Shown piece by piece: positions 7,456-62,840 of a stretch of DNA of 64,000 nucleotides. The translations under genes were made by a program, and so were the position numbers. Within the stretch, counting starts at the first letter, position 1. Each line of letters opens with the position of its first letter. The notes beneath the pieces are model-generated. The model ran no database searches, had not been told where the DNA came from, and saw nothing but the letters and a program-made list of their open reading frames with translations. This DNA is from Raphanus sativus (Eukaryota; Streptophyta; Magnoliopsida; Brassicales; Brassicaceae), in assembly GCF_000801105.2 (NCBI RefSeq), contig NC_079516.1:19786611-19850610 (forward strand). Direction: 5' to 3'.

Positions 7456-7456
7456 T

Positions 7457-10400: not shown

Positions 10401-11116
10401 ACAGTGGAAAATGCTATTCAGCTCTATAGAACTAAAAGACATAGAGCTCCAAACCTTCAGTTGGTAGATAAAGAAGTCATGAGGTTAAAAAACAGAGGTC
10501 TTAATGATCAGGATGATTTGTGTCTTTGGAAGAGAGAAAATGGTGATTATAAGGAAGCCTTCTCTATGGTTCAAACCTGGAATATCATCAGATCTCAAAA
10601 TCCGAAGGTCGTTTGGTTCAAAGGAGTGTGGTTCTCTGGTTCAACTCCTCGGTTTTCTTTTCTGGTTTGGATTGCAGTTCAGGATAGGCTAGCAACCGGA
10701 GATAGAATCAGCCGATGGAATCCTCAAGCTGATGTGAAATGCTGGTTATGTCAAGCGCCTCTAGAAAACAGAGATCATTTATTTTTTGACTGTGGCTACT
10801 CGAAGGAGGTCTGGTGTAGTTTGGTAAAGAATTTGGCTGGAAACAGGAGTGTTTATGAGTGGTCAAGGGTGCTCCGAGAAGTTGTGAGAGGGCTTTCTGG
10901 GAAAACAGAGATTTTCTCTATCGCTATTGTTTTCAGGTTGCTGTGTATGCGATTTGGAGGGAAAGAAATGTGAGAAGAGTTGGAGAACCTTCTCAGACAG
11001 CTGCCGGTCTCATAGTCAGATTGGATAAAATGGTTCGAAATAGAATCACATCTCTGAGGAGTAAGAAAGGTGAGAAGTATAAGAGAGCGATGGAGGTTTG
11101 GTTTGGAAGAAGTTAA
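7457..11116 (+). pseudogene. LINE ORF2: endonuclease and reverse transcriptase, broken
   Basis: Starts MSGFYWNVRGFN, the typical start of the APE-type endonuclease. GDYNEIL and the terminal NWCNKRENGV block are visible up to 8122, where the frame breaks. Coding continues at 8157-8603, with a stop just after, and then 8676-10973. The reverse transcriptase has [50 protein letters not shown] and GMRQGCALSPYLF. The catalytic FADD box reads FADN here, so even a repaired frame would lack one metal-binding Asp. The zf-RVT region (WLCQAPLENRDHLFFDC) follows, and a last frame-shifted part ends at 11116. Confidence 0.9.
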
Positions 11117-16986: not shown

Positions 16987-17294
16987 TTTAGTTCCAGGCG
17001 GGAGAATCGCTTAATGATTATTATCTCTTCCAAGTTTTACTTTACCAAATGACGTACATTTAAACTAATTGATTTTCGTCTTCTGTTTCACGTGTTCTTA
17101 ATTAACCGAATCATGAAACTTCCTAGAAAAAGAAAAGAAAAGAGAAGGAAGGCCAAAAGAAAAAAGGTTTTTTTACCCAAAAAAAAAGAAAAAAGGTTTA
17201 TTTATTTGCCACTAATCAAACATTGAGCTGTAAGAAAGAAACCATTGGCGACTAAGCGTTGACCCTCTATCTCTCTCTCTATCTCTCGGTAGCC
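16987..17294 (+). promoter_or_regulatory. Promoter and 5' UTR of the amidase gene
   Basis: About 300 bases conserved with 33109-33345, the upstream part of the truncated amidase copy. That conservation marks it as the ancestral promoter. It contains CACGTG (17090-17095), a possible G-box, and a CTCTATCTCT pyrimidine leader just before the ATG. The Helitron pair now sits immediately upstream and has displaced any more distal promoter by 4.8 kb. Confidence 0.5.
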
Positions 17295-19555: not shown

Positions 19556-19938
19556 TGATAGAGTATAGATCTATGCTTCTCGTAACAAACTCTTCTTGTA
19601 TAGATTCAATGAATAAAGGAAGTACAGCTTTGTAGAATGATCTCGAGTTATACTCTCATCACGAGTTCACTCTCGATCACTGATCTCATAGCGATCAGGT
19701 AGTACAGACTCATAACGTCTATAACAGACTACAACAAAGCTTACCTTCACTACACACACTACTTCTTATTTATACTACTCGATAATAGCTGTAACCGAAT
19801 AACGGCAAATACTCTAAATGAACCAGAGGTTCTCTCGATGATTATTCAACACGTGATACTCATCACTCTGTAACTTCTCGCTCACTCTTCTCTTCTCCAC
19901 CCTTCCTCTTACGGTAATACACTTTCTTGAGTCTATCA
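19556..19938 (-). repeat. 3' LTR of the gypsy element
   Basis: 383 bp, TGATAGA...TCTATCA. I find no difference from the other LTR by eye. The polyprotein frame runs 76 bases into this LTR and stops at 19863. Confidence 0.95.
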
Positions 19939-22900
19939 ATACTCCCCCCAACGAAATCCAGCTTGCCCTCAAGCTGGTAAGATGGAAAACTCGTACGGAA
20001 CTCTTCCAACGAAACCCAAGAGTCTTCCAAAGACGACTTGTCCTGCCAATGCACCAAGAGTTCCAACTCGCCTTTTGTACCATAACGTTTGGCCAGAATG
20101 TCCTGAGGAAGGACAGTGTCTTCTACTTCAGTGATACAACCAGGTGGTAAAACCGCACTCTGATCATGGGCGCCCAAAGCCAGCTTAAGTTGTGAAATGT
20201 GAAAAACCGGATGTACACGAGCTGCAGATGGTAACTGGAGTTTGTAAGCTGTTGCTCCCACTCGCTCCAACACCCGATATGGACCGTAAAATTTAGCAGC
20301 AAGCTTCTGGCAAAAACGTTTAGCTACCGTCTTTTGCCTATACGGTTGTAGCTTCAGATAGACCATATCACCCACCGCCAATTCAATATCACGACGAGAT
20401 TTATCTGCTTGACGCTTCATAATGTCCTGTGCTCGTTGCAAATTGTATTTTAAAGAATCTAGCATCTCATCGCGTTCCTTCAAAGCAGTCTCGAGCTCGT
20501 AATTAGCAGTAGACCCATCTTCAAAACGGAGAAGGGCAGGAGGATCTCTACCATACAACACGTTGAACGGCGTTGTTTGAAGAGATTTGTGATATGAAGT
20601 ATTATACCACAATTCTGCCCAGGATAGAAAAGAATGCCAAGAGCGTGGGTGTGTAGAGCTAAAACATCTCAAATATGTCTCGAGACAACGGTTTAATACT
20701 TCAGACTGACCGTCCGTCTGAGGATGAAATGCTGTGCTATACTTGAGAGTCGTACCCGCCAGACGAAAAACCTCAGTCCAAAACGCACTCAAGAAGATAC
20801 GGTCTCTGTCAGAAACAATGCTCAAAGGAAAACCATGAAGTTTAACAATTTCGTTGATGAACTTCTTGGCCACATCTAACGCTGTGAACGGGTGTCTGAG
20901 ACTAATGAAATGAGCAAATTTGCTTAAGCGATCAATCACCACAAGAATCACGTTGAACCCGTTCGATGTCGGTAATCCTTCGATGAAGTCCATTGTAACA
21001 TCCTCCCAAACATGGTGTGGGATCGGCAGAGGCTGAAGTAAACCAGCTGGAGACAGAGTCGAATGCTTGTGTGTTTGACAAGTATCACAAGCTGCCACAT
21101 ACTCCTGTATATGTTTATACATGCCTTTCCAAAAAAATGAACGTTGAATCCGTTTCACTGTCTTCAAAACACCAGAGTGACCACCCACTTTTCCATCATG
21201 TGCCTCTTGCAATATCACCGAAATGAACTTAGAAGACTTCGGTATCACTAAACGCCTCTTTGACCACAATCTGCCTTCTATAACTTGATACTTTGGAGAA
21301 GTCAAAACACCCTTTTGCACCTTCTTGATCAACTCTTGAATGCCAGTATCATTTGCAATCTCAGTATACAGATCTTCCCACTGTAACACCTTTGGTACCG
21401 TCAAAGCGAATAGAATGGAAGAAGTAACTAAGGATCGAGATAAGCCATCTGCGACCTTGTTTTCAGGACCCGGTTTGTAGAAAATCTCAAAGTCAAATCC
21501 CAGAATCTTCGTCAACCACTTCTGATACTCAAGATTAACTTCTTTCTGTTCCAGTAAGAATTTCAAGCTTCTCTGGTCCGTGTGAACCTGAAATTTGCGA
21601 CCAATGAGATAATGCTTCCATTTCCTGATGGCCATCACAATAGCCATTAACTCACGTTCATAAGCAGGTTTCAGTTGCTCCCGAGGAGTGAGTGCATGAC
21701 TAAAGTAAGCGATAGGTTTTTTATTTTGTAGTAAGACCGCTCCCAAACCAAATCCTGAAGCATCCGATTCGATAATAAAGGTTTGAGTGAAGTCTGGTAA
21801 TGCCAAAACTGGGGCGTGAACCATAGCATGTTTCAACTTGTCAAACGCTTCTTGAGTTTCTTGTGACCATGCGAACTGATCCTTCTTCAGTAAGAAAGTT
21901 AATGGTCTTGCTATGACGCCATAATCTTTTACAAACTTTCTGTAATAGCCGGTTAGGCCCAAAAACCCACGTAACTGTCTGATAGTCGTCGGAGAAGGCC
22001 ACACTGTCATTGCTTTAATCTTGTCAGAATCCGTTGCTACCCCCTTAGCAGATATGATGTGACCCAAATATTCCACCTCAGACACTCCAAACGTACACTT
22101 CTTGCGATTAGCATACAAAGTCTGCTCTCGTAACACCTCCAAGACTTGGCGAAGATGTTTCTCATGTTCTTCTTCATCCATGCTATATATTAATATATCG
22201 TCAAAGAATACAAGAACGAATTTCCGAAGAAATGGCTTGAAAACTTTGTTCATGAGAGCTTGAAACGTTGCAGGCGCATTTGTGAGGCCAAAAGGCATCA
22301 CTAGGAATTCATAGTGCCCCTCAACTGTTCTAAAAGCAGTCTTGTGAACATCTTCTTCTACCATTCTAATCTGGTGGTAACCCGATCTGAGATCCAGCTT
22401 CGTAAAGATTGAGGCTCCGTGTAACTCGTCAAGAAGTTGATCGATTACTGGTATTGGATACTTATCCAATACTGTGGCACGGTTTAAAGAACGGTAGTCG
22501 ACGCAAAAGCGCAGGGAACCGTCTTTCTTCTTGACCAACAGTACTGGACTGGAGAACGGACTAGTACTCGGTCGAATGATACCAGTAGAGAGCATATCAT
22601 TGACCATCTGCTCCATTGCGACCTTGCTAGCGTGAGGGTAGCGATATGGCCGAACAGAGACTGCTGAAACTCCCGGTTTGAGAATAATGGCGTGTTCATT
22701 TCCTCTAAAATGTGGTAGAGCCGTTGGAATGGCGAACACATCCTCAAACTCGTCGAGTAACAGAGAGAACTTTGAACGAACTTCCGGAATCGTAGATGTT
22801 GCTATAGCAGTAGTAAGTTGCACTTCCCTTCCAAGCTTACTACTAGTATAGACTGGAGTCAGAGACTTGAAGGAGAACTTGGTGCAATGCAGAGACTTAT

Positions 22901-24587
22901 CACCTAACAAAGTCACCTTGTTCCCATTATAGACAAACGAAAGGATCTGCTCCTTCCAATCCACTTCGCAAATGCCTAAGGTTTCAAGCCACTGAATCCC
23001 CAGTATCACATCTATGTTTCCCAGTTCAAGAGAGGTGAAGTCACTTATAAAGTTGGTGTGATTTAGAATGAAGTTGACGTCTTGGCAAGTTCCCAAAGCC
23101 TTGACTGTCACTCCATTCCCCAACAACACGTCCAAGCTGCTGTCTACAGAAATTTTCAATTGCAGCTTGTTCACAACTTCAGGTGAGATGAAGTTGTGGG
23201 ATGCCCCGCTATCGAGCATGACAATCACCTCTTTTCCATTGATAACTCCCCTCATCTTAGTTGTCTTAGGAGAATCAATGCCAAGGTACGAGTTTAGTGA
23301 TAATGTGCGAAGTACTTGTGGTGTTTGTGAGACCTGACTCTCTTCGTCATCATAATAATTAGGCACCTCAAGTTCCATTCCATTAACCACTGTAAGCACT
23401 CGTAACATCTTGTTAGGACAATCCTTGTTGTGAGCCGGAGACCATGGTGCTTTACATCTGAAACAGATTTTATCCTTCCTCATTTGATCCAATTCTGCAT
23501 CAGTGTGTTGCAGACGAGGTCTCATGTTGTTACGTTGAGATCCGATGTTTTCTTTATTTGCAGCTGAATCGTTCTTCTGTGTCTCATGTTGAGATTTGTT
23601 GTGGTATGTAGCAGCACGCTGTACCTGTCTCTGATAGCCTCCCCGCCCTTCACTAGCGGCCGAGCTAATCACGCGACAGAACGTTGTGCTCTGCATCTTC
23701 AGAACCGCCAGCTTGTGTTGAGTCAAAGTAACAGGCTCCTTCATACGAATCACTTCTTTCATATCTTCCTTGAGTCCATTAAAGAACACCTTGATCAAAT
23801 TCTTCTCGTCCACTCCTGTAACTTGGTTTCTCAATGCTTCAAACTCGTTCACATAATCCTCTATCTCTCCTTCCTGCTTCAAACGGAACAATCTCGCTCC
23901 TGGATCGTTATCAATAGATCCCCCGAATCTGTCTAACATTCTCTGTGTGAACTGATCCCAGTTAACAAACGGATCGCTTATCGTCTCTCCATTGAACCAC
24001 TGCAGTACTGCACCTTCCAAACTCAAAGACACTAGATAGAGCTTTTCATCCTCATTATAGTTGCCAAACCTGAAAAACCTCTCCACACGAGATATCCAAT
24101 CGAAAGGCAACGCACCAGAGAATACAGGCATTTCAATCTTTCTTAGCATCTTATCACGATTCGCAATAGTATCCTGAATTCCCCGATAACCTAAATGAGC
24201 TGGAGATAGTTCCGGTGGAATAGGTATCGGTACCTGATCTATCGGAGATTGTGAAGATGAGGCTATCGCTTTCCCCGGTCGTTGATTAAGAACGGCCGTT
24301 TCTTCCGATCTAGTCAAGAGATTGGTGATATCGTTCATCTTCTGTTCCAATCCTTCGAATCGTGAAACAGAATCGGCTCCGATCGACTCGATCGTCTTCT
24401 CTAACGAGTTGACCTTCGTCGCCATGGAATCGAGTTTCGTCGTCGTCGATCTGTCATTACGAGCTAGCTTCTCGTAATTGTGTTTCGTCAGCTCCATTTC
24501 TTCTTGAATCTGTTGTAGATCCATCGATTTCGATGACTCGGTCATCAGTGCTTTCTCTCTTTCGCCGCCATTGCGCGTTTCCACCAT
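19863..24587 (-). CDS. Gag-Pol polyprotein of the gypsy element, intact
   Basis: A single uninterrupted frame of 1574 residues from ATG 24587. Order seen: coiled N-terminus; retrotransposon gag ([27 protein letters not shown]-like region, residues about 160-300); CCHC knuckle [16 protein letters not shown]; aspartic protease [12 protein letters not shown]; reverse transcriptase with [17 protein letters not shown] and the catalytic FFDDILIYS (YxDD class); RNase H with [13 protein letters not shown]; integrase with the HHCC finger ([18 protein letters not shown]) and D,D,E core residues ([31 protein letters not shown]); then a chromodomain ([18 protein letters not shown]). The basic tail after the chromodomain is encoded by the LTR. 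All catalytic motifs look present, so it may be active. Confidence 0.95.
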
Positions 24588-24632
24588 CTTCGTCGACTCG
24601 CGTTGGCTCCGATCACAGTTTCACCGCGCCAG

Positions 24633-27220: not shown

Positions 27221-28487
27221 TTACACCGCATGTACCACGTTGGAGATGTCTGAACTATCAGAGCTAGGATTCGGGTGAAATGCTGATTGTCTCGTACCTA
27301 GCTTCAGCGAAAGAGACTGATCAGATTCTCCATTCTTCTTCTTTGACTCTCCAAGGCTAAGCTTAGACATACCAAGAAGCTCATCCACATTAATAGGAGC
27401 TTTTGAGTGCACTGCAGTTGGTCTAAGAATCTGATGAGTTTCCTCTTTCTTGGTTGGCTCAGGAACAAAACCAGCTGGCCATATTGGGTATGGAAACGGG
27501 TAGTACGGTGAGAAGTAGGCTGGGTATAGTATAGGGAATGACTGTAGTTGTGGTTGCAGCTGTGTGGTTTCTTCTAGTATTGACGAAGAAGAAGAAGCAG
27601 CAGCAGCTATGGAGGTTGGTTCACCGGTGGTGGAGTTTGTTGAGTCCATGGATTCACATTCATCGATCTCCAAGATTGATGGTGCTTGACGGGAGGTAGA
27701 AGCAACTGTCTGATGAACAGAATCAGAACTTTGCATTAATGTTTCCACAGGAGCGTTCTCTGTTTCCGGTTCTTGCTGATCCATCGGTATATCTTCTCCC
27801 TGCAAAGATAAATTACACATATGACTTATTTAATCAAACACACACCATAGCTTATGAACCATTTTTGATTCAGTATCTCTAACCTCAATCATATAGGCGT
27901 AACGAAAGAAGGACTAACCTCATCAGGAATCATATCAAAGAGACTAGAACGTCTTTTGCGACGAGACACATTAGATTGTCTGATGAAATACTTCTGAGCA
28001 TGGCTAGCAACCTGTGTCGGTGTCCTCGTATTCACATAGTTTCTCGAAATGCCACGCCAATCACCTTTACCTAGCTTCTGTAAACCTAACAAGAACATCC
28101 TATGTTCTTCCTCTGTCCATGGAGTTCCTACAAACACACAAAATCTCAAGAAACGAATTGGATTCAACGGGATATTGAATCAGAGAGTTGGATAGATAGA
28201 TAGATACCTTTCTTTCTCTCACGGCTAGAGGAAGAGCCAGCAACGAAATCCTCAGAAGCGTAACCATCACCACCACCACCACCAGCGACATGGTCAGGGA
28301 CATCACCAGGAGAACCCGACCCATGCCCACCCGATCCAGAGCCCGTGTAGTGGCTAAGATTGCCCATACTTGCACTTTTCCTGATCGAACCTTCGGTGAG
28401 CCTTACACCGAATAGCTTCACACCACGATTGGGACATGTCCGGGAGTTGTGACCGTTGTGATTGCAGTGAGAGCAACGACGAGTCAT
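27221..28487 (-). CDS. KUA1: MYB-related (1R, SHAQKYF) transcription factor, KUA1/MYBH-like
   Basis: Three exons, 28208-28487, 27919-28127 and 27221-27799, give 355 residues in an open frame. Residues 1-20 hold a CCHC knuckle ([14 protein letters not shown]). Residues 94-145 are the MYB repeat with [19 protein letters not shown] and SHAQKYF (135-141). A basic [11 protein letters not shown] follows. Near the C-terminus lies the EAR-type repression motif SLSLKLG, and the end reads [14 protein letters not shown]. This closely matches Arabidopsis KUA1/MYBH (At5g47390), a repressor that binds TATCCA-type elements and promotes cell expansion and delays leaf senescence by limiting peroxidase genes. 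A Ser-rich run and a Gly-run (GGGGGDG) differ from what I recall of the Arabidopsis protein. Its place beside the AIM24-like gene supports orthology. The symbol is by similarity. Confidence 0.94.
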
Positions 28488-48213: not shown

Positions 48214-49928
48214 CAATAGCGACTGTGCAATAACATCTCTAATCCGTATCATGTTCCACTGTAGACCGCATTACTTTATAGAATCTGACAATAACATCAC
48301 ATGTAGTTTGTCGATCGACTTTATCTCAACACATACTGAAACTAGCAACGTGAACATACACTTGACTACTCGTGTCTGACCAATTAGAGATTAGTTGTGT
48401 GTTTATGTCATATAAGTTTTATCTACTTTTACTATATTTCTGTAAATTACTTTTCACATTATGTATTTCTCTAGTTATATTTATAAACTATTTCTTTATT
48501 TTAACATCATTAAATATATTAATAACAACATCTGTTTCCAAACAATAACATAATCAAAATTGCAAATCTAAAAGTGCGACTTAATTAGTTCAACTTAGAA
48601 TTACTTTGTAATTGATTCAGTTACACCAAAATTTACAATTATACAAAGTCTTACAAAGTTTTCGGAAGTCATAGAGAAATAGATTCAAATTTTATAGTTC
48701 GGGTCTGGATGGTCCGCGATATAGTTCTGATTAAGTTGTAATTATGCAAATTTTTATTCGTTCTGTAGTTCTCTAATAATTTTTCTGACTTGAATAAAAA
48801 TTTATTTATTTAACATTTTAGGCAGGAGTATCTCATAATTTTTTTTGTCGGGGAGCAATTGATTCAAAGTAATTATGTATTGGGATAGCGATTGGTAAAT
48901 ATATATCAGCCGTTTATTGCTTATCTCGTGAGAGACTTGATATCCCTATTTCTTTCCTTTTTCTTTGTCAAAAACTTGAGACGTTTTCAAATTTTGACTC
49001 ATGGATTGTTAATTTGTTATATTCGATAATGCTACTTCTTCTTCTTTTGTGGACTGATAAAAAAGCCAACTGTTACGAGCCAAACCTGTCAAGATCCTGC
49101 ACAAAAATTTTCTTCCTCTCAAACCTTGAGAACAGTTAGCAACGCACTATTGGGGCGGATTTTTTTTAAAGAGTGAAGTTAAAAATCTCTCTCCTACAGG
49201 AGATCTGCAATTGGTGGCTGATCTACAAAGCTATAGTCTCTTGCTTTCAAGCCAAATATGGGTAATATTTTCTTCTTTCTAATTTGTCTCACCTCTTTCA
49301 ATTTATAGTTCGATTAGTTTTTTAAAATAATTAAAGAGAGGGCTTGGGTTTTCTATTCGATCTCTCTGATTCATACCAGTTTCTTGACTTCCTTAACAAA
49401 AGTAATTAATGAGACTGGTTTGCAAATTGCAATGATTTGAAACATGTGTTGGCCATAAATCCACTTATGCATATCAAACCAATATTTAAAAAAAAAAAAA
49501 ATACAGTTCCTCTATGGATAGATTTTAAATCCACGAATGCATACCAAAAGATTGAGCATATTAAATACAGATTATACTGTTATTTTTCAATAATTTTTTG
49601 TGTTCAGTCTTCTCTCTCTATTCTTAGTTCAGTCTTCTTCGGATCAGTGATCCTCTTGTCCACCACCAAAACCTTATTATATTTGTACTATAACTGTTAT
49701 CCAGATTTGCATTCAATCGCTGATTAATTTGCTATAATATTTCAATAGATCAAGGCTCGAGCCAAAGAAAAACAGAACGGTAACATGTAGCAAAGATTTG
49801 AAACTCTCTATAAACACACAATTTTAAAATGTGTGCAAATATCTTATTAGTTTCTTTTTTGTTTTGGTTTCTTGTATTGAAAAGAGGAGTATTCACAGAA
49901 ACTGGAGAAAAATCTGGAGGATTTGGAG
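48214..49928 (+). promoter_or_regulatory. Upstream region of the CNL receptor gene
   Basis: No coding gene seen. A GT donor-like GG|GTAATA at 49263 and an acceptor-like TATTCACAG just before 49900 would allow a 5' UTR intron of about 0.6 kb, common in this receptor class. Codons 49902-49928 read EYSQKLEKNLEDLE, like the conserved N-terminal coiled coil of RPS5-type proteins, but an in-frame TGA at about 49894 precedes them and no ATG is joined in frame. The very N-terminus therefore seems lost. Confidence 0.4.
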
Positions 49929-52406
49929 ATGGAAGTGGAAACTCTCAATTCAATGATAAATGAGTTGTTGAGAAGGGTGTCAAAAGAAAAGGACAGAGGT
50001 GTACAAACGGTACCCGAAGTGGAAGAATGGATTTCAAGGGCGGAAGAGACCGAATCGAAGGCCAGTGGTCTCCTCGATGAAAGTATTTCAGGATGTCACG
50101 ATTTATCTACCTATGATGATTGTTCGAGGATATCTGAATCGACCCGTCGTTATAGCGAGATGGTGTCTACGACGTTGAACGAAGCTAAAGATGTGAGATC
50201 CAAGGGAGTATTTAAAGTAATAGTTGAGAGAACAACTCCCTTGTCTTACGTCAAAAACATGCTCCCGCTTCACCCAATTGTTTCTCGAAAAATGTTGCTC
50301 GAAAAGGCGTGGGAATGCCTTATGGGGAATGGATGTGGGAGTTTGGGTTTTTATGGTGTAGCTGGAGTCGGGAAAACCACCCTTCTTACTCAGCTTAAAA
50401 ATAAGTTGACAGAAGATGGAGATGCATCTAGTCTTGTGATCTTTGTTCCTGTGGGGCCTGAAGAAGAGGTCGAGGAGGGTATTCAACATGAAATCTGGAA
50501 AAGATTAGGCTTGTCCATGGGACAAATTGATAAAGAGGAGAAAGCATCAGAAATATTTGAGATCTTAAGTGTGAAGAGATTTGTGTTGTTGTTGGATGGC
50601 ATACATAGGAAAGTGGATCTTAAAGAAATTGGAGTTCCATTTCCGAGCAGCAATAACGGATGCAAAATTGTGTTCACCACTCGTTCTCGGGAAACATGTA
50701 GAGGCATGAGGACTGATACCGAAGTCGAAGTTGAATGTTTGAGTCCAGAAGAAGCATGGGATTTTTTTCAGGTGATTGTTGGAGAAGCTACGTTGAAAAG
50801 TCATCCGGACATACCCCAGCTGGCAAGAATAGTTTGTGGGAAATGCGGTGGTTTGCCTGTTGCTCTCTGTCTCATCGGCGAGACCATGTCACGCAAAACG
50901 ACTGTACGAGAATGGCATCATGCAATTAGTGTTTTGGTTTCATCTACCACAGAAGATGAGCTTCTTCCCAATTTGAAGTTTACGTACGATAACCTGCATG
51001 GTGAGAGTATCAGGTCGTGCTTCTTGTATTGTGCTATGTTTCCGAGAAGTTGTGATATAAGTAAAAAGGAGCTGGTAGACTGTTGGATAGCCGAGGGAAT
51101 GATTGAAGAAGAAGAAGACAGAGAGATAGCTGAGATCAAGGGGTATGAAATGATTGCTGATTTGGTTATGATGAGATTGTTGATTGATGATGAATCTGGA
51201 TATGGTGTAACAATGAATGGCATTGTTCGTGAAATGGCCTTGTGGATAGCCTCTGAGTGCGGGAGGCAGAAAGAAAAATTTGTGGTCGTAGGAGGTATGG
51301 GAATTCATCAGATGCCAGAGGTGAATGATTTGAGTAAAGTTAGAAGGATGTCAGTAACATCTACTCAGGTTAATACCATATCTAACTCTCCTAACTGTCT
51401 TCATCTTACGACCTTCTTCCTCCAAGAAAACAGCTTAACATGGATCTCGCATGATTTCTTTCGGTGGATGACCAGCCTTGTGGTTTTGAACCTATCGCGC
51501 AACAGAGAACTTGATGAGTTGCCGGAACAAGTTTCAAGTCTGGTGTCGCTGAGGCTTCTCAACTTATCAAGGACAAAGATAAGTCGGTTACCGCTCGGTC
51601 TGAAAAGGCTTAAAAGGTTGATACACTTGGATTTGGAGTACACATCTCTTCTCCGAGAGGTTGAAGTGATTGGTTATTTACTGAATCTACAAGTGCTACG
51701 TTTATTACGGTCTGTTCCTATGGATCTCAGCTTAATGGAGGATATACAGCTTCTGAAGAGTCTGAAAGAGTTGAGTCTAACCGTGAGAGGAGTTGATGTT
51801 TTGAAGCGGTTACAAACTATCGACCAGTTAGCAAGTTGTATCCGACATTTACATCTCACAGGGATTACAATAAAAGATGGAGGAACACTACTGCTGAACT
51901 CTATGTTGAGCCTTCGCGAACTTGATATTCGGATGTGTGATACCCCGGAGACCATACATTTTGGCAACATTCAGAAGATTCCAAATTTACTGAACATACG
52001 CAGAGTGGCTCTTTCTTGGTGCACAGGTCTCAGGGACTTGACATGGTTGCTATTAGCCCCGAATCTTAGCGAACTAAGGGTACATGAATGTCAGCAAATA
52101 GAACATATAATAAACAAAGAGAAAGCCACGGGTGGTATGAGCGAGCAGCCCTTCCGAAATCTAACTAGGCTAGGCCTAGATAGTTTACCTCGACTGGAGA
52201 GCATCTACTGGACTCCTCTACCCTTCCCAGTTCTGAAATATCTTTACATAAGAGGTTGTCCAAAGCTGAGAAGACTTCCATTTAGCACTAAAGGGCATCA
52301 AGTGCGATCGGATATTTACCAAGAATGGATCAAAGGAGTTGAATGGGAGGATCAAGCTACGAAGCAACATCTCTCCAATTATGATGACAGGTCTCTTCTT
52401 CTCTAA
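49929..52406 (+). CDS. CC-NB-ARC-LRR immune receptor (RPS5/RPS2 class), possibly fused to kinase
   Basis: Unspliced it is 825 residues from ATG 49929. An RPS5-type CNL with a shortened coiled coil (EVEEWISRAEETESKASGLL at about 30-50). NB-ARC: P-loop GVAGVGKTT at 143-151; kinase-2 LLLDGIH, where the second acidic residue (223-224, usually DD) is Gly; RNBS-B KIVFTTRS; GGLPVAL at 307-313; RNBS-D CFLYCAMFP; and, in place of MHD, MNG at 429-431. LRRs start near 480 and run to about 790. CNLs recognise pathogen effectors and trigger cell death. MHD changes can cause autoactivity, and loss of the Walker B acid would impair ATP hydrolysis. A donor AG|GTCTCT at 52390/52391, just before the stop, can splice in frame to 52520, linking it to the downstream kinase (1240-residue fusion). 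Neighbouring genes suggest orthology with At5g47250/At5g47260. Confidence 0.9.
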   Translation: MEVETLNSMINELLRRVSKEKDRGVQTVPEVEEWISRAEETESKASGLLDESISGCHDLSTYDDCSRISESTRRYSEMVSTTLNEAKDVRSKGVFKVIVERTTPLSYVKNMLPLHPIVSRKMLLEKAWECLMGNGCGSLGFYGVAGVGKTTLLTQLKNKLTEDGDASSLVIFVPVGPEEEVEEGIQHEIWKRLGLSMGQIDKEEKASEIFEILSVKRFVLLLDGIHRKVDLKEIGVPFPSSNNGCKIVFTTRSRETCRGMRTDTEVEVECLSPEEAWDFFQVIVGEATLKSHPDIPQLARIVCGKCGGLPVALCLIGETMSRKTTVREWHHAISVLVSSTTEDELLPNLKFTYDNLHGESIRSCFLYCAMFPRSCDISKKELVDCWIAEGMIEEEEDREIAEIKGYEMIADLVMMRLLIDDESGYGVTMNGIVREMALWIASECGRQKEKFVVVGGMGIHQMPEVNDLSKVRRMSVTSTQVNTISNSPNCLHLTTFFLQENSLTWISHDFFRWMTSLVVLNLSRNRELDELPEQVSSLVSLRLLNLSRTKISRLPLGLKRLKRLIHLDLEYTSLLREVEVIGYLLNLQVLRLLRSVPMDLSLMEDIQLLKSLKELSLTVRGVDVLKRLQTIDQLASCIRHLHLTGITIKDGGTLLLNSMLSLRELDIRMCDTPETIHFGNIQKIPNLLNIRRVALSWCTGLRDLTWLLLAPNLSELRVHECQQIEHIINKEKATGGMSEQPFRNLTRLGLDSLPRLESIYWTPLPFPVLKYLYIRGCPKLRRLPFSTKGHQVRSDIYQEWIKGVEWEDQATKQHLSNYDDRSLLL

Positions 52407-52519
52407 ACACTTTTATTGTTTTTTTTTTCTCACTCTTATTCGTTGCTGAAACTGAAAAGCAGTTGTGATTTGATCTTGCACTGGTGATACTCCGTGTTAA
52501 TTGTTGTAAGCGGGTGCAG

Positions 52520-55500
52520 GGATTTTCCGAAGATTCCCGAAGAGCAGAAGATGGATGGTTTGGCATCTGAGTCACATCCAATCGAAGAGATAGTCCTGGT
52601 AGAGACTTTAGGAAGCGGAAAAGGTACCACTACAAACAGCATCACCGAAGAGGTTCAGTCGGGAACACACGCTACTGTAGAACACACCCAAACATACAGA
52701 TATTTAACGCCAGATTGCATGATCAGCAATAGGATTGACAATCGTGGTACGTTTTTTAACATAATTAAGGATTGATTGTTTTTTCTTCTTTTTGCTAACA
52801 TTGAGAAAGCAGCATTTGTAAATGGTAAATACTAGGAGTGTTCATGCTTTCTGCGCAAAAATATAAGTTTTAAATATAATTTTTTTTTCATTTGGAACAT
52901 TATTATTTACTGTAGGTTCGGAAAGAAATAAAATGATGTATTTCCTGTAGCTTTATTCCTTTTAATTTTGTTTAACAATCTTACTTTGATTTTTATTTGA
53001 ATTTCAGTAGAATTAAGATTATATTTTATAAAATAACTTTTTAATTTATATTAGATTTCATTATTATTATTTTTAAAGATTTCTTGTATCGCCTAGTTTT
53101 TAAGTATGTCTATAGATATATAAAAATCCCTATAAAATAGTATAGTATTCATTCACCATGCAAGAAAACGATATAATATTCATTTACTGTTATAAAAATT
53201 GTAACAGTCATTTAGTTATGTGTTTTATTTTTATTTTTTTAATTTAGTTCTCAATTTTTTGTTAAAAGACTTTTTCGGATAACAACACAATATATATAGG
53301 AATTATCTTTTTATTTTAAAATATATTTTTAGATTTTGGATAAATCTTAATATTATTAATTTTAACCAATTATCTAATAAAAACCAATTATTTTAATAAA
53401 AAAACTTTTTTTGTTTTTGACTAATATATATATTTTATTCATTAAGAATATAAATAATAGTAATCTCTCTAATTTTTAATATTAGGTGTTGGACGAAAGG
53501 CAGTGCAGCCGAGCGGGGTGATAGTGACGCCAAGTCTAAAGAAGTTTTCATTAGTGGATCTTAAGACGGCGACAAAAAATTTCCGGCCGGAATCAATGAT
53601 CGAAGAAGGTGGATTTGGACAAGTATTCAAAGGATGGTTGGAAGAGAAGACGTTAGCTCCGTCCAGGGCCGGCGTTGGAATACCAGTAGCCGTTAAGAAA
53701 TCAAGCCCTGATAGTACTCAAGGTTTGCATGAATGGCAGGCAAGTACATATTTTCTTTTCCTTTTCATATATTTTTATTCAATTATTGAACTCGTTATAA
53801 GTTTTTAATATAGAAAATATAAATTGAAAATAGCATTTTTTATGTATATATAGGCGCGAATTAGGGAAAATAATCATTTCATATAAGGATGTATTTATGA
53901 TAGAAATAACAAAACAAGTAGACTGGTCATTTTGTTTCTAATGACTGATATACTTATACATAAATGTAAATTAAGCCAATATATGGAAACCTTTTAGCTT
54001 GCTACTTGTCGTATAGTTGCTCAATATAATGATAACTTTGAAAACATATATTCAACAAATAATAGTCGAACAAATTATATGCTAGTATTAGTTCGGCATT
54101 AATTTAGGGTCTCCTTTTACAAATGTATCAGTTTAGGGTTATAAATGTCGATAACAAAAAAAGAAGACAAACGTATATAAAATATTTGAGCGGCATGTTA
54201 TAAATGATTACTTGATATAATAATAATAAAAGAAATGATGTATTTTTAAAACATAAAACTTAAATAGTTGTACTGAAAGAGATTATGTTTAATCATTTAC
54301 AGATAAATTTCATTGGGCCGGTCTCTTCCATTTTAATACATAAAAGAAGAAGTCAATGTAACATTATGCCAAAAAGTAGCGGAAGAAGAAGTCAAATAAC
54401 TCTCACGTAACTGCATTAAATCAGGAAAAATACGTATATCATTTATGTCGATGCGTCAAAATTGTTTATTCTCAACTTTAATAAAAAAAATTAAGAACTG
54501 GTTATTAATTATTTATTATTCGGTTCTTAACCTTTTTCTATTCTTAAATTACGCTAAAAATCTCATTCTAAAAATTTCCATTAATCATGCTTTTATGTGC
54601 AGTGTGTACGGTCTTAGCTTGAAACTCGGTTATATGATATACTAGTGATATTCCGGCGCTGCGCGCCGGATTTGTATGTTTTTTTCTTACTTAAATTTAT
54701 AGTTTATTATATGGTTTTAGTAAAAAAAATATGTAAAATGAAAATATGTAAAAAAAATAATATTTTCTGATCTTTTTATAATGATTAGTGACCGTAATAT
54801 ATTATTTTGTTTGAAGTTATTTAGTTCAAAGTAAAATAGCATAAGTAGTTGTTAATAATCGATTTAATAAAAATAGAATAAAAATTAATAGTCGTAAAAA
54901 AGTTTTTAGTTAGAATCTTAAATACTCGTGTCATAGACTGAGCTTTCTTTCAATAAATGTTTAAAAGTGTTAAACGTGAGAAAGTTGATTAACGCATGTA
55001 GAAGGACCATCTGAGAAAGGAGATGATGCATAAGAAAACTGCTACTTTAAAAGTAAGCAATCATTAACTCGTAAACTGAAATAAGAAATCGGTGTACTTC
55101 CCATTAATCAACAACATATCAACCCCAATATCTTTCTCCTTTCTTAACATTTCAAGCTTGCCAAAATTGTTGTAGCCTAGTTTGAACATCTCTACACTAA
55201 TTTGTCTTTAACTCCGAGCAATGAAACTGGAAATTCGACAATGATTGAATTGGAAAAAGTAAAGGAAGTATCGTCCGAACTCTCACACCATCTATACATA
55301 TATAATGAAACTGAGAAAGCATGAACTAAAGAACCATTCAATAGGAGATGGTGGGATGAATGTGATTTCTGGATTGATTATATGAATGATTACGTCGATT
55401 GCGTTAAAGAAGGAGAATTGCAGAGGCTATATTCTCCATCGTCAACATCAAATACAAAAAAATCCTATAAACCAATATTTTGAAACCCGACCCGGACACT

Positions 55501-58500
55501 GAATCAAATGATTTACCTAATCACTGGATCAGTAGATTAACCACAGATGAATTGCGGGTTAATAAATAAATTAGTTTTATCATATAATAATATATTAGCT
55601 ATGAAAACAAATATATATATAAACTAAAGTTAAGAATTTTAAGTGTACATACAAAATATTAAGAAATAGTTTAGACTATTTTAAAAAGTTGTAACATAAG
55701 AATTATGACATCTAAAAAAAATCAAGACATTTTCAAATCCAAAACAAACCAGAATTAAAACATTATTGTAATAAATTATCAATAACAAAAATAAACTAAC
55801 ACCAGATCACATCAACTAATTTTGGTTTTCTCTAAATTTTAAAATTTACCAACAATTTTTTTCTAAATTTGTCATTTCATCATTTTTGGGATATTTTTCA
55901 GTAAGAGCATTCTCTAATTTATTATAATCAATCTCGCCATGTTTTTCTTCTTCAACAATCCAAACTAAACTAAAGTTAAGAATTTTAAGTGTACATACAA
56001 AATATTAAGAAATAGTTTAGACTATTTTAAAAAGTTGTAACATAAGAATTATGACATCTAAAAAAATCAAGACATTTTCCAATCCAAAATAAACCAGAAT
56101 TAAAACATTATTGTAATAAATTATCAATAACAAAAATAAACTAACACCAGATCACATCAACTAATTTTGGTTTTCTCTAAATTTTAAAACTTACCAACAA
56201 TTTTTTTCTAAATTTGTCACTTCATCATTTTTGGGATATTTTTCAGTAAGAGCATTCTCTAATTTATTATAATCAATCTCGCCATGTTTTTCTTCTTCAA
56301 CAATCCAAACTCTATTTTGTAATTCATATGATCATATGATTTTTTTTTTGATCTGTAAATTAAAAATGCAATGATTTGTATTAAATTAAATAAAAAAACT
56401 ATTTACTCACCTTTCTTGCCAAAGTAAATTGTAGTATAGGAGAATAATAAGTCTCATCGTGCTTCAGTCTGTTTTACGGACGTGCAGCTCAAGCACAATC
56501 ATGACTCACTTTTTTTGCAAACATAAATTGTAATATAGAAGAAGAGGAAGACGATAATAAAACTGAAATTTCAAAATTTTAATTAGAAATTTAGAATATA
56601 GACGATAATTTCAAAATGTAACTTAAACTAAAAATAGTAAAAATAAAAATTATCTATTGGTTCAACCAGTGCTGCAATAAAACCCAAACTCAATTTCTAT
56701 TGGATCACAGATTTATCAGTTCAATTACGGATCTAAGTCAGATTCAAAACACTCTTATAAATGCTTGAACATGTATAAAGAAAAGTTTAACCTCCACTCG
56801 CCCCATTTATTTGACAATTAATACCAAAATTCATTAAATTTAAGTTGAAAAAATATTTTAATTATTAAAAAGAAAAGTTTAACCTCCCCTCCCCTATTTA
56901 TTTCACAATTAATACCAAAATTCATTAAATTTAAGTTGAGAAAATATTTTAATTATTAAAAAGAAAATGTCACATGGCATTTTTCTCCCCAAGGAGATAA
57001 AAAAGCCTACTTTATTAGTATAGATCTATATTAAATAACAGCTGTGAAAGATCAGGCCACTAATACTATTTATAATTATAGTAATAACTTATTAGTTATT
57101 AAGATATGGAAACAATAAACAAAAAATAAGTAAATCTTGACCTGGTTTTCGACGAGATATGAATAAATATCAATATGAAGATATACGAGCTTTGACCATT
57201 AACCTTTCAATTTTGTAAAATACTAAACAATAATATATTTCATTAAGTTTTTTTTTTTTGAAAGAATGTTAAATTTTATTCCTCAAAAAAACCTTTTTAC
57301 AAATAGGTTGCTACCCATGATTGAACAAATAGTTTACTAAACAATTTTTCCCCTAACCAAACCAAAAAACGATCAAACTCTAGTTCCAAACCAGAGCTTT
57401 AGTCCATCCTCCATCCCTTTCACTCTCTTTGACTTCAATAAGCTCAGTTTGTTTCTAATACCCTTGTCAATCATCTTCTTTAAAACAATCACAGGAGCCA
57501 GCTTCTCACCATGTTTAACCCTATTCCTCTCTCGCCAAACTCCATACATAGCTGCGTGGAGAGCATAGCGGAGACAGAACAGCTTCTTTTGGTCCATATT
57601 CCTCCCCTCCGAAATCAACTGCATATTTTCAGCCCATGTACTTGTGAACGCACTTCCCATGATCCCCAACACAAGACTCCTCCACAGTTGAACTGAATAT
57701 GAACATTCAAAGAAGAGATGGTTTCGACTTTCCCTTGCATTTTTACAGAGCACACATCCATCATCAACACCTAGATTCCAACTAGCAATTCTATCCATCG
57801 TGGAAAGCCTGTTTAGATTCGCTAGCCAGACCATGAACGCAAACTTTGGAGTTGCCTGAGAAAACCAAACACCTCGAGTCCAAACACACTTTTCTTTCTC
57901 ACCTCTAGTGAGCTTCCAAGTTTCAGACGTTGAGAAGTCATTTCGAAAACCCGCCTCTCTCTTCCACATACTCTCATCCTCCACATCTTCAGTCATACTA
58001 TCTTTCATAGCACTGAGCTTCTCTTCAATAGTATTAAGGATCTCTGTTCTGTGCCTCCTTCTTCTACGAGCTTTAAATACAGCTTCTTCAACCGTAGCTT
58101 CCTTACGGATGCCCAAGTCAATAAAACCTCTAGCACCCAACCGATCAAATAAGACTCCAATTTCACTCCAGTTGTCGAACCAAAAGGAAGTATGACGACC
58201 ATTTCCTACTTCTTTTCGATAGAAACCTTTTGCAATCTCTCTTAGCTTAAGTAACTTCCTCCACATCCAAGAACCATTTTGAGACTTCACATTCACTTCC
58301 CAGAAACTTTTCTTTTTCATAAGATTTTCCTTTATCCATTTGCTCCATAATGACTTCCCATTAAGCAATCTCCATATCAGTTTCAAGCCACAAACCAAGT
58401 TCACTTCCTTAAGAGCTCGAATACCCAAACCACCTTCATCTTTTTGCTTGCACACTTCACACCATGCAACCTTTGCACCAGTGGTTTTGAGAATCGGACC

Positions 58501-61275
58501 TGACCAAAGAAAAGCCGCACAAAGCTGTTCTACCTCTTTCATACACTTGCTTGGTAACCTGAAAGCAGCAGACCAGAAATTCACAATACTCATAATCACT
58601 GCTTGTATCAACTGCAATCTTCCTGCATATGACAGAAACCTGCTTGTCCATGTATTTATTTTGCAGCGAATCTTTTCCACCAACAGTTGATAATCCTGCC
58701 TTCTCATGCTTTGGGTCATTAAAGGTAAGCCTAGATACCTCACAGGAAGAGTTCCTACTGCCAAAGGGAAGTTTAACAAGATTCTTGCCCTTTCCTCTGC
58801 TTTCACTCCTGCCATGTAGATTGTAGACTTCTCTATGCTTATTTTCAATCCAGACCAGACCGCAAATTCATCAAACACAGCAAGCGCACCTTCTATAGAC
58901 TTCTTTGATCCCTCAACAAACACCATAAGATCATCTGCGAAGCACAGGTGGGTGAGAGACAAAGAGCTGCAACCAGGATGAAACTTGAACTTCTTTTCCA
59001 CAACCGCCTTGTCTATCTTTAAGGACAAGATATTCATACAAAGAACAAAAAGGTACGGTGAGATTGGACAACCCTGCCGTAACCCTCTTTTGCTTTGAAA
59101 ATATCCTGCAAGTTCCCCATTCACTTGCACAGAAAATGAAGGGCTTGTGATGCACAATCTTATCCAGTGAATAAACTTTTCAGGAAATCCTAAAGCTTCT
59201 AATCCTTTCAGAACAAATTCCCACTGAACAGAATCAAAAGCTTTAGAAATGTCAATTTTCATGACACACCTGGACGAGACTGTCTCCTTGTGATAGTCTT
59301 TTACTAACTCTGAAGCCAAGAGCACATTCTCCATTAACAACCTCCCTTTGATGAAAGCCGACTGGTTCTCACTGATGATATTAGGCAGCAGCTTCTTCAG
59401 TCTATTCGCAATAATTTTTGACACCACTTTGTAGATGACATTGCAGCACGCAATAGGCCTATAGTCTTTCATTTCCATAGAATCTGTCTTTTTAGGTACA
59501 AGAGCCAAGATCGTTGAGTTCACACCTTTTGGTAAGAAGCCAAACCTGAAGACCGATTGGATAGCTACCACGAAGTCCCTTCCAGTGATATCCCAAGACT
59601 GCTTAAAGAACTCACAGGAATAACCATCCGGCCCTGGAGACTTATTTGCAGGCATCGCAAATAACACTTTCTTGATATCTTCTGTAGTTACCTCAGCTTC
59701 AAGCATAATACAATCATCTAAGCTGCATCTGTACTCAAGAAGCTCTCGCAATTCATCCACTGTAGTGCCTTTGTATTCATCAGGACACATGTTTAAGAGG
59801 TTTGAGAAGAAACTCTCAGCTTCCTTCTTTATCTCCTTATGCTCTGAGACTGTACTTCCATCAACACATCTAACCTCTCGAATCATATTCTGCGCTTGAC
59901 GTGACCTTATTGCGTTATAGAAAGCTTTGTTGTTGTGGTCTCCCACATCCAACCAATGAAGTTTTGATCGTTGCTTTAGAAAATCTTCTTCCAGACTTGC
60001 AACCTTCAACCAATTCTCATAAGCTATAGCTTCCTCTTGAACTGCTACTTCACTTGGGTCTTGAAGCGTTTTCTTCTGCTTATCACATAACACCTCATAA
60101 GTCTCTTTTGTACTTCATTAAGTTTTTCATAATAATTATCACTAATTTTTTTGAACCCAGTCATATGGGATGTAATTGTTAATGTGTATATATATATTGC
60201 AAAATTGCAGTGTGAAGTGAGATTTTTAGGGAAATTTCATCACCCAAATCTGGTCAAGCTCTTGGGTTATTGCTGGGAAGAAAATCAGTTCCTCTTGGTG
60301 TACGAGTATTTGCCTAAAGGAAGCCTTGAAAATCACCTCTTCTCAAGTCCAATATTACTCACACATTAATCACTTCATCTTACAAATCATCTTTCTTTCT
60401 TCATATAGTATATTTAAGATGTGCATGTAATGTTATTGCAGAAGGAGAGGCGTTAACATGGGATACACGTTTGAAAATTGCCATTGAAGCAGCTCAAGGA
60501 CTTACTTTTTTACATAACTCCGAAAATAGTGTTATTTACAGAGACTTCAAGGCGTCAAACATTCTTCTTGATTCCGTACGGTGTCGTTGCTTGTCATCTC
60601 TATCTTTCACGTTTTCTGCATGCATGTTTCTATTTTAGTTAACACTTAACAGTTGTTTCGTTTCTTACAGAACTTCCACGCCAAGCTTTCTAACTTCGGT
60701 CTAGCGACAAATGCTCCGATTAATGGATCCTCCTACGTGACCACACGTGTCATGGGCACACATGGTTACGCAGCTCCCGAATACATGGCTACAGGTAAAT
60801 AAAAAAACGGACAATTTTGTTTGGAAACACACATGTAACAACTCGTCGTTTCAATCTTGTATAACAATGTTTTTTTAATGTTGTTATAGGTCATTTATAC
60901 GTGCGGAGTGATGTTTACGGATTTGGAGTGGTCCTCCTAGAGCTATTAACTGGTCTAAGAGTATTAGACCGAACCCGACCTTCTGCGCAACAGAACCTTG
61001 TCGAATGGGCTAAACCGGTTCTGACCCAGAAAAAGAAAATCCAGAAAATGATGGACCCACGGCTCGAGCACAAGTATCCAATTATGGCGGTGACTAGAAC
61101 CGCTGCACTAATTCTACGGTGTCTCGAGGCTGACCCCAAGAACAGACCGCCCATGGACGATGTACTTAGAGAACTGGAAATCGTGAGGACTATCAGAGAC
61201 GAACTAAAAGAAGAGAGGCGTAAACGTAGCGTTGGTGGGAACTTGATAAACCTTTTCCAAAGCTGTCGGTTTTAG
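52520..61275 (+). CDS. RLCK-VII (PBS1-like/PBL) kinase with NFG motif, probable C-terminal part of NLR fusion
   Basis: Exons 52520-52746, 53486-53739, 60211-60346, 60442-60575, 60671-60794 and 60890-61275 join without a break. A 75-residue acidic region with no myristoylation-type MGxC start precedes the kinase. Kinase motifs: glycine loop [16 protein letters not shown] (ATP-binding Lys); [10 protein letters not shown] (alpha-C Glu); [11 protein letters not shown] (catalytic Asp kept); then NFG instead of DFG (AKLSNFGLA); [15 protein letters not shown]; and [19 protein letters not shown] lacks the Mg-binding Asp, so catalysis is doubtful. The 6.47-kb second intron starts with a GC donor (CAG|GCAAGT) and contains a Helitron and a LINE. 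RLCK-VII kinases act just below immune receptors. If separate from the CNL, translation could begin at ATG 52551, giving a kinase without the family's usual N-terminus. Confidence 0.82.
55621..56312. repeat. Tandem duplication of a 346-bp unit
   Basis: Two nearly identical units, 55621-55966 and 55967-56312, inside the Helitron. Few differences are visible, so the duplication is young compared with the other repeats here. Confidence 0.92.
56781..56968. repeat. Tandem duplication of a 92-bp unit
   Basis: AAAAGTTTAACCTCC...TTAATTATTAAAAAG is repeated with a few substitutions near the 5' end of the Helitron, plus the start of a third unit. Confidence 0.88.
57025..57238. other. Residual original intron sequence between Helitron and LINE
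   Basis: AT-rich. With 53740-54641 and 60128-60210 this leaves an ancestral kinase intron of roughly 1.2 kb. Confidence 0.6.
57239..60127 (-). mobile_element. 5'-truncated L1 LINE in the kinase intron
   Basis: Minus orientation. The 3' poly(A) appears as a T run at about 57247-57259. The target duplication TTCATTAAGTTTTT is at 57239-57252 and 60114-60127. The 5' end lies within ORF2, so endonuclease and ORF1 are missing, the usual result of incomplete reverse transcription. The protein resembles the plus-strand LINE at 5.8-11.6 kb (for example NSTILALIPKK versus [11 protein letters not shown]). Confidence 0.93.
57373..60093 (-). CDS. LINE reverse transcriptase (ORF2, 5'-truncated but open)
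   Basis: An uninterrupted 906-codon frame. It holds the end of the endonuclease-RT linker ([20 protein letters not shown]), the reverse transcriptase with [52 protein letters not shown] and an intact FADD (CFADDLMVF), then the zf-RVT region ([18 protein letters not shown]) and the C-terminal [14 protein letters not shown]. The absence of stops over 2.7 kb argues for a fairly recent insertion. It is antisense to the kinase gene and cannot retrotranspose alone without its endonuclease. Confidence 0.93.
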   Translation of the reverse strand: MLCDKQKKTLQDPSEVAVQEEAIAYENWLKVASLEEDFLKQRSKLHWLDVGDHNNKAFYNAIRSRQAQNMIREVRCVDGSTVSEHKEIKKEAESFFSNLLNMCPDEYKGTTVDELRELLEYRCSLDDCIMLEAEVTTEDIKKVLFAMPANKSPGPDGYSCEFFKQSWDITGRDFVVAIQSVFRFGFLPKGVNSTILALVPKKTDSMEMKDYRPIACCNVIYKVVSKIIANRLKKLLPNIISENQSAFIKGRLLMENVLLASELVKDYHKETVSSRCVMKIDISKAFDSVQWEFVLKGLEALGFPEKFIHWIRLCITSPSFSVQVNGELAGYFQSKRGLRQGCPISPYLFVLCMNILSLKIDKAVVEKKFKFHPGCSSLSLTHLCFADDLMVFVEGSKKSIEGALAVFDEFAVWSGLKISIEKSTIYMAGVKAEERARILLNFPLAVGTLPVRYLGLPLMTQSMRRQDYQLLVEKIRCKINTWTSRFLSYAGRLQLIQAVIMSIVNFWSAAFRLPSKCMKEVEQLCAAFLWSGPILKTTGAKVAWCEVCKQKDEGGLGIRALKEVNLVCGLKLIWRLLNGKSLWSKWIKENLMKKKSFWEVNVKSQNGSWMWRKLLKLREIAKGFYRKEVGNGRHTSFWFDNWSEIGVLFDRLGARGFIDLGIRKEATVEEAVFKARRRRRHRTEILNTIEEKLSAMKDSMTEDVEDESMWKREAGFRNDFSTSETWKLTRGEKEKCVWTRGVWFSQATPKFAFMVWLANLNRLSTMDRIASWNLGVDDGCVLCKNARESRNHLFFECSYSVQLWRSLVLGIMGSAFTSTWAENMQLISEGRNMDQKKLFCLRYALHAAMYGVWRERNRVKHGEKLAPVIVLKKMIDKGIRNKLSLLKSKRVKGMEDGLKLWFGTRV

Positions 61276-62840
61276 AACTTGATAAACCTTTTTCAAAGAA
61301 AATTGCTTTAGATGACAAACAAGTGATATTTTCCTTGTGGATGTTGAGTATAAATAGATTCCAAGTGTTTAAGGTAGGTGTGGACATTTGGGACATACGG
61401 AAAAAGATGTCTACTTCCAGCTGTCCAATTGAATGTGGAAACAAATCCAACACATGAAGATTTATATGCTGAAGAACCTCAGGTTGAAATGGAAAAAAGT
61501 ACCAGCTCAGTCTACTGTTGCGTCAAATCAATTGGTGTTACCAACTGAAAATTCAGAGTCGAACTTGGTTTCAGATGAAGAAACACGAGAAAAACTTACT
61601 GAACAGACTTTGGAATCTACTAAAGAAAGTGATGGGCCTAAGGATTTCTCTACTCCAGCAAACAACCTCACTGAAGCTACTATTTGGAAGAAATTTCATC
61701 CCTTGTTATTGTTTTCGAGGCCAACTTGGTTTCATGGGACAATTTATTAGTCCCACAATACTCTCCTGCACATGGCAGTCCTGTTCAAATTGCTTGTAAT
61801 ATGAGAAAGATGATGAAAGAGGATATATGAGTGATGCATGTCACGGCAAATCTCAACATCTCATAAGGTGAAAAACCAATAAAACCAATCCAAAAGTTTC
61901 AAGATATAGAATGGAAAACTGTAAGAGAAATGAGTAAAAGAGGTTGTCGAGGCCATGGAAACCACCTTCCATCTCCCTAATTGTTTTATCCTTTTCTTGT
62001 TTCATTAAGCTTATGAATCATAAGTCTTCTCCTTTTTAAGCAAACGCTTGGTCTAATATGAGGCATGTCTCATCATATTTTCTCAAACTTTATGGTTGTT
62101 TCAACAATACCTTTTACGTTTTTATTATTTTAATTTGAAAGTCCTTTTACAAAAAACGTATCGTTTGTGGATCAGGTCATAACAACCGTGTTAATGGATA
62201 TGGTTTACCGCACTTCCATAGAACCGAACCGGTCGTATCGAATAGTCTAGTCATATACACATTCATACGTAAAACCTTTATTATATTTAAAAATAAAATA
62301 AAATGTATTCCTTTTTGTAGTTTTTGTTTTTACATTATCAGAATTAATAAAAAAAACAATATATCAAAAAATATTTTAGTGAAATACTTTCTGTACAATG
62401 ACAGTTTTAAATTTCTCATCCAAAACAATTTCATTTTTCGTAATTATAATTCTCATTTTTCTCTATGTATTTATTTTTGTAGTTTTTACACCAGAGTTAG
62501 TGAATATAATATAGCGAAAAAAACAGTAAAACGTTCTATGTACAATGACAGTTTTAAATTTCACGTGCAAAAACAAAATTCAATTTTTAATTATAATTCT
62601 GGTTTTTTCTTCCTTATGTTGCAAATCCAATTGCTACTTAAAATATTTTTCAATGACCATGATGTCCCTATTGCTTAGATTAAATAGAACACCACATCGA
62701 TTCTTCTCTTTTGCTTCCTTTATTTTTTTCAATTTTTTTGAATTTTGAATTCCTTTTCCATCATTCTCTCTCTTTCAAATCCATTTGCAATTCCTAAGAG
62801 AATTTTCATATTGATTGTCAAAAATATTAGTTATTTTTGA
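61276..62840 (+). other. 3' flank of the kinase gene with an unassigned coding-like stretch
   Basis: The first 60 bases repeat part of the end of the kinase exon (GAACTTGATAAACCTTTT occurs at 61240 and 61276). At 61433-61750 a plus frame reads VASNQLVLPTENSESNLVSD and EKLTEQTLESTKESDGPKDF, protein-like, acidic and unrecognised; a parallel frame reads THEDLYAEEPQVEMEKS. It may be a captured gene fragment. The rest, from about 62100, is AT-rich with nothing recognised. Confidence 0.35.

Follow-up and report, generated by a model that had tools for sequence, protein, structure and literature searches.

RPS5-PBS1 and ZAR1-PBL2 are the textbook examples of NLRs that keep watch over an RLCK-VII kinase that is a separate protein. 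Effectors repeatedly target RLCK-VII kinases (PMC12170986, PMC3739749), and PBL30 and PBL31 serve RLP23 signalling (PMC12170986). The kinase domain is already common as an integrated domain (ID): NLR-kinase fusions form a large published class of 161 proteins, B. napus and B. rapa included (PMC4759884); a Pkinase ID occurs in 105 species in a survey of 305 angiosperms (PMC12787737); and the 69 ID-bearing NLRs of the B. napus NLRome include some with protein-kinase domains (PMC11884775). Kroj and colleagues caution that erroneous annotation may account for some fusions (PMC5067614), and the same caution applies to the fusion considered here.

We have analyzed a window of 64,000 nucleotides from Raphanus sativus (C6:19786611-19850610; positions without a contig name are window positions) in which an RPS5-type CNL is followed by an RLCK-VII kinase. 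The initial annotation, which proposed that the two are fused, knew of no description of such an arrangement; this was too strong a statement for NLR-kinase fusions, already a published class, but a fusion that joins an RPS5-type CNL with an RLCK-VII pseudokinase was indeed not found in our literature search, which covered mainly open-access journals and main texts, and we do not claim that it is absent from print. The locus is a credible but unproven NLR-ID candidate, the main rival being an adjacent chimeric kinase gene; that a duplicate RLCK-VII kinase is joined by splicing to the CNL, and that the resulting 1240-residue protein serves as an integrated bait, is a reading we prefer tentatively, at slightly less than an even chance.

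Gene structure and the proposed junction

Splicing of the seven exons in Table 1 exactly reproduces the in-phase frame originally claimed: 49929-61275 yields a single open frame of 3723 nt, encoding 1240 residues and a terminal stop with no internal stops, in which Pfam places the NB-ARC/LRR domains first and the kinase after. The donor AG/GTCTCT at 52391 and the acceptor GTGCAG/G at 52519/52520 are likewise both present as described. Of the features that define an NLR-ID, NB-ARC plus LRR is found by Pfam, and the additional domain (kinase PF07714, residues 933-1208, 8.9e-45) is readable in the spliced frame, conditional on the proposed junction.

Table 1. Exons, introns, and associated features of the CNL-kinase locus (window positions)
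Feature	Position	Strand	Description
Exon 1	49929..52390	+	CNL: partial coiled coil, NB-ARC, winged helix, LRR; 820 codons plus 2 nt
Last codons of CNL frame if intron 1 is unspliced	52391..52406	+	Stop at 52404-52406
Proposed intron 1	52391..52519	+	129 nt, 43% T; weak donor CAG/GTCTCT
Exon 2 (bridging)	52520..52746	+	75 complete codons; contains ATG 52551
Intron 2	52747..53485	+	High-copy repeat inside at ~53210-53479
Exon 3	53486..53739	+	Kinase N-lobe; glycine loop EEGGFG, lysine VAVKK retained
Intron 3	53740..60210	+	Conserved GC donor; swollen by LINE (~57253-60113) and further insertions
Exon 4	60211..60346	+	Kinase
Exon 5	60442..60575	+	Kinase; catalytic loop YRDFKASN retained
Exon 6	60671..60794	+	Kinase; DFG changed to NFG; activation segment retains TTRVMG
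Exon 7	60890..61275	+	Kinase C-lobe; native tail swapped from 61238 for inserted sequence, which provides the stop
Remnant of native kinase tail and 3′ flank	62154..62449	+	69% identity to chromosome-7 gene; displaced by insertion

The junctions differ in what can be said for them. Among 18 GT/AG pairs examined between the CNL and exon 2, six are in frame and open, and two of these use the donor at 52391; the phase match between 52390 and 52520 is a one-in-three event, no more than expected by chance. The kinase exons, by comparison with their relatives, are clearly real beyond chance: three paralogs can be aligned to exons 3-7 without a single gap, and the donors and later acceptors of these paralogs occupy the same positions.

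The CNL part

The assignment to the RPS5-type CNLs was borne out by Pfam matches to NB-ARC (PF00931, 5.8e-55, residues 122-342), WH_DRP (PF23559), PF23598, and LRR_RPS2 (PF23247), and by alignment to nine CNL paralogs; the best solved relative is 9h2l, a 948-residue NB-ARC protein. Among the 64 matches listed from the same genome, the closest full-length CNL is 45% identical, and near-full-length CNL frames such as L039 and L004, which we take to be RPS5-like and whose N-terminus, where shown, is of the MG...CDQ kind, are 40-45% identical. Against the nine paralogs, the window CNL reads i) MNG at the MHD position, which is MHD in eight and LHD in the ninth; ii) LDG where all nine have LDD; and iii) GLPVAL where the paralogs have GLPLAL. 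An MG start and a CDQ motif, found in 4 of 4 CNL paralogs examined, are absent: similarity to the paralogs starts inside the coiled coil at ~49870-49890, the first in-frame Met is at 49929, and an upstream MG exon was sought without success. We also considered a trace of the lost N-terminus in a stop-containing frame upstream of 49890, and dropped it when 41 to 103 of 500 shuffles equaled its score. Judged by MNG, LDG, and the lack of an MG N-terminus, the CNL is degenerate.

The missing N-terminus and the MNG motif suggest a sensor that would need a partner. We looked for a paired, head-to-head NLR among the genome matches only, and found that the nearest RPS5-type match on C6 (19871249-19872868, minus strand) lies ~32 kb past the window CNL stop in convergent orientation; this CNL match, part of L024 (C6:19871249-19873253), is split over more than one open frame.

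A truncated copy of an RLCK-VII gene

The kinase was compared with the whole 433 Mb assembly (6413 contigs), 100 of 2857 candidates being scored and 123 matches listed. Its closest relatives among PDB sequences are BIK1 (3.2e-111), PBL2 (1.5e-106), and ScRIPK (2.7e-99), followed by SymRK (2.1e-66), in agreement with the original RLCK-VII assignment. Relatives of the last exon among the matches listed lie at C7 13.409 Mb (91%), C7 8.510 Mb (86%), and C2 1.892 Mb (83%). These genes (L019-L021) open with an exon that starts MGN, and their second exon, which is longer, runs unbroken into the N-lobe VG(R/K)KAV...PSG stretch (MRKKAV in L021). Similarity between the window and L019, the chromosome-7 paralog, begins at ~53483, where the exon-3 acceptor has its AG, so that no native promoter, MGNCC exon, or start is left; the native start, the first exon, and the 5′ part of the second are all absent from the window kinase. 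Thus, on the evidence of these alignments, the window kinase is a 5′-truncated duplicate of the chromosome-7 RLCK-VII gene starting MGNCC. This also explains the earlier remark that the kinase has no MG start of its own: none precedes it, while L019 has one (ATGGGGAACTGTTGTCC), and the acylated MG(C) N-terminus present in native L019 was lost by truncation. We presume from its MGNCC start and its end at RRTGRTG that the native chromosome-7 protein resembles PBL31 (AT1G76360).

Otherwise the window kinase keeps the native gene structure, including the GC donor of intron 3 (CAG/GCAAGT; 53739/53740), a GC-AG intron conserved in all four kinase gene copies (window, L019, L020, and L021). Exon 7 is interrupted at 61237 by ~0.9 kb (61238-62153) that replaces the native tail. 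A second partial kinase copy, which matches the window at ~91% identity across exons 4-7, lies beside the native chromosome-7 gene at C7:13400914-13402421.

Kinase motifs

Two changes are confined to the window: the DFG aspartate is Asn (NFG), and the first G of the glycine loop is E, both positions being intact in 3 of 3 paralogs (L019, L020, and L021). The lysine of VAVKK, the YRD, and TTRVMG are all kept. The NFG change is of the pseudokinase-like sort that had been claimed, and catalysis has probably been lost. The label "PBS1-class" did not survive; neither the GDK cleavage motif nor SEMPH or STRPH, described as PBS1 motifs in PMC5511198, occurs anywhere in the 1240 residues, and PBS1 identity was rejected on these grounds. 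Uridylylated ST or TT residues are described in PMC3739749 as highly conserved across RLCK-VII, and by analogy the TT of the window may be such a site.

Coding constraint and the possibility of decay

Over 327 codons, window and L019 differ with dS 0.142 and dN 0.031 (ratio 0.222), and paralog-paralog kinase pairs have dN/dS 0.143-0.166. When changes were polarized with L020 and L021 as outgroups, dropping 8 unassignable positions, 33 fell on the window branch (17 nonsynonymous, 16 synonymous) and 12 on the L019 branch (6 and 6); a neutral simulation of 33 changes gave 17 or fewer replacements-plus-stops at P 0.0012 to 0.0142, depending on transition bias. Counting both branches, 983 nt of kinase exon have no indels, and the aligned intron sequence, 828 nt long, has 21 indel events. 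The DFG-APE segment of 29 codons holds six of the 17 replacements on the window branch (binomial P 0.0025, for a region picked after looking). Coding has been largely kept, as the absence of exon indels and the 17 to 16 ratio on the window branch indicate, and so for much of its history the kinase remnant was translated, if with constraint rather relaxed, the window-branch pN/pS of 0.33 being about twice the paralog-paralog dN/dS; the constraint may predate truncation. Contig C4054 repeats window 51586-60547 with differences confined to intron 3 and none in shared exon sequence; it is perhaps allelic, perhaps a redundant contig.

These data bear on whether the locus is simply decaying, both parts being recently dead or dying and the joined open frame a coincidence of young pseudogenes. 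The CNL has lost its N-terminus and reads MNG and LDG, the kinase has the NFG and glycine-loop changes, its last exon bears an insertion and its third intron a LINE, and its pN/pS is about double that of intact paralogs, all as decay would have it. Against this, i) the 3723 nt contain not one stop or frameshift; ii) the exons have no indels versus 21 in introns, and replacements are below the neutral expectation; and iii) from stop to stop the CNL has 841 open codons, though its nearest full-length relative among the matches listed shares only 45% identity with it. We regard decay as rather improbable, the least probable of the readings weighed here.

Repeats and insertions

A LINE-like element in kinase intron 3 (57253-60113, minus strand) has a 913-aa open frame, stop to stop, and a 14-nt target duplication, and L019 retains the uninterrupted counterpart of the site. 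Also within the intron, a ~345-bp unit at 55620-56311 is present in two copies in the window and three on contig C4054. Between 52300 and 53485 we found 128 genome matches, 126 of them at 53174-53485 and the other two being the window itself and contig C4054; the sequence at ~53210-53479 is a high-copy dispersed repeat, often in arrays and ~79% identical to its best relatives, that ends beside the kinase break point.

Elsewhere in the window, an unbroken 1585-aa open frame at 19863-24620 (minus) looks by eye like a gypsy-type retroelement polyprotein, and several open frames at 5875-10973 (plus) look LINE-like, also by eye. We take the frames at 17256-17912 (plus) and 27221-27829 (minus) to resemble an amidase and an MYBH-type transcription factor, respectively.

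The bridging exon: one gene or two

Exon 2 is the crux, compatible both with a fusion and with a pair of neighboring genes. Genome-wide, neither the DNA of exon 2 nor its peptide has a relative except itself and contig C4054 (the next peptide match has E 1.66), and no match was found in the CNL loci or, apart from the window and its copies, in the other loci compared. An origin as a native CNL exon was rejected for want of any match in CNL loci or genome, and one as a native kinase exon because native kinase exons differ and, again, nothing in the genome matches. The codon score of exon 2 in the proposed frame (0.322) exceeds those of its five other frames, and is equaled by 9 of 486 overlapping stop-free 75-codon non-coding windows, which is borderline and only suggestive of coding. 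Base composition breaks at 52392, 52752, and 53485, near the exon 1 end, the exon 2 end, and the exon 3 start; on its left side, however, exon 2 has its break at 52445 rather than at the proposed 52520. Folding of intron 1 RNA is unexceptional in value (z = -0.23).

If there are two genes, a diverged but ordinary CNL ends at 52406, and a chimeric kinase gene follows it, having gained a first exon and a start of its own (ATG 52551, 409 residues), with 52391-52519 then serving as CNL 3′ end and kinase 5′ leader; the kinase would then be soluble, a pseudokinase that might act as a decoy inherited together with the CNL yet unjoined to it. The CNL stop is where one would expect, since it lies 17 residues past EWED and the nine paralogs stop ~10 to 36 past it (some loci end near the frame's end); a CNL that ends where such CNLs end has no need of a second exon, and this counts against fusion. 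In addition, ATG 52551 is the first ATG past that stop, has the context AAGATGG (A at -3, G at +4), and lies in a frame open through into exon 3; and an in-frame join to the CNL is expected one time in three anyway. However, just 144 nt separate the CNL stop from ATG 52551, little room for a 3′ end, promoter, and leader, and the frame is also open for 21 codons upstream of that ATG, from 52488. The mere ~113 nt between the CNL stop and exon 2 likewise count for fusion, as do the composition breaks near the exon ends, the unchanged exon sequence of contig C4054, and the six replacements in the DFG-APE segment; the weak donor, the lack of any relative of exon 2 in the genome, and the missing CNL N-terminus count against it. 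We consider two separate genes unlikely, if less so than decay.

Discussion

To return to fusion, the locus could have arisen when a DNA-level duplicate of an RLCK-VII gene, cut inside the native second exon, came to sit downstream of a diverged RPS5-type CNL. A kinase remnant with neither promoter nor start would most simply be kept translated if the CNL were spliced to it by way of the orphan exon 2. The kinase, which lacks the DFG aspartate but keeps its fold and the acceptor residues of its activation segment, might act as an integrated bait: effectors able to bind or modify the activation segments of RLCK-VII kinases would hit it and so relieve the attached NB-ARC/LRR. The degenerate CNL, with no MG/alpha-1 N-terminus and with MNG and LDG, would be a sensor relying on another NLR for execution. 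The gene structure, the truncation, the coding constraint, and the residue losses are seen in the sequence; what we infer beyond them is a joint transcript, a bait function, and dependence on a helper. A fuller history, to which we give somewhat less credence than to the spliced bait as such, is that of a recently formed integrated-decoy receptor, in which an RPS5-type CNL, deprived of its death-inducing N-terminus and of MHD control, took in at its C-terminus a truncated RLCK-VII kinase, which was then silenced (NFG) with its fold and effector-modifiable activation segment kept.

If CNL and kinase are joined, guard and guardee have been made one molecule, with the native donor kinase still in the same genome for comparison; a natural covalent version in the same receptor class would offer a way to ask whether integration frees a kinase from its own signalling role; and the locus would bear against the generalization, made in PMC4759884, that catalytic residues are conserved in NLR-fused kinases. 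If the genes are separate, the locus is still a clear example of a truncated RLCK keeping its frame beside a CNL.

Comparison with known systems

The papers cited allow the following comparisons. i) The published NLR-ID Pkinase class (Sarris 2016, Kroj 2016; PMC4759884, PMC5067614) has, like the window, NB-ARC/LRR and kinase in one frame, and C-terminal fusions are described; the catalytic lysine and aspartate are conserved in all of the set (PMC4759884), whereas the window kinase lacks the DFG aspartate, and the published fusions come from annotated proteins, whereas that of the window is a predicted one. ii) Barley RPG5, a cloned CNL with a serine/threonine kinase (PMC5067614, PMC9528084), shares the order of CNL then kinase, but is a grass CNL. 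iii) PML5 and other CCG10-type CNLs (PMC11467418) belong to the same class as the window CNL and also have a partly missing coiled coil; PML5, however, retains its acylated first residues and loses 113 inside, whereas the window CNL misses the first residues. iv) The window copy departs from the PBL30/PBL31/PBL32 group in its truncation, its missing acylated N-terminus, and its NFG. v) RPS5/PBS1, and ZAR1/PBL2 with the pseudokinase RKS1, are NLRs watching RLCK-VII kinases, with pseudokinases as adaptors (PMC12170986), and the window likewise combines an RPS5-type CNL with an RLCK-VII kinase; the window kinase lacks the GDK and SEMPH of PBS1, and in the known systems guard and guardee are separate proteins.
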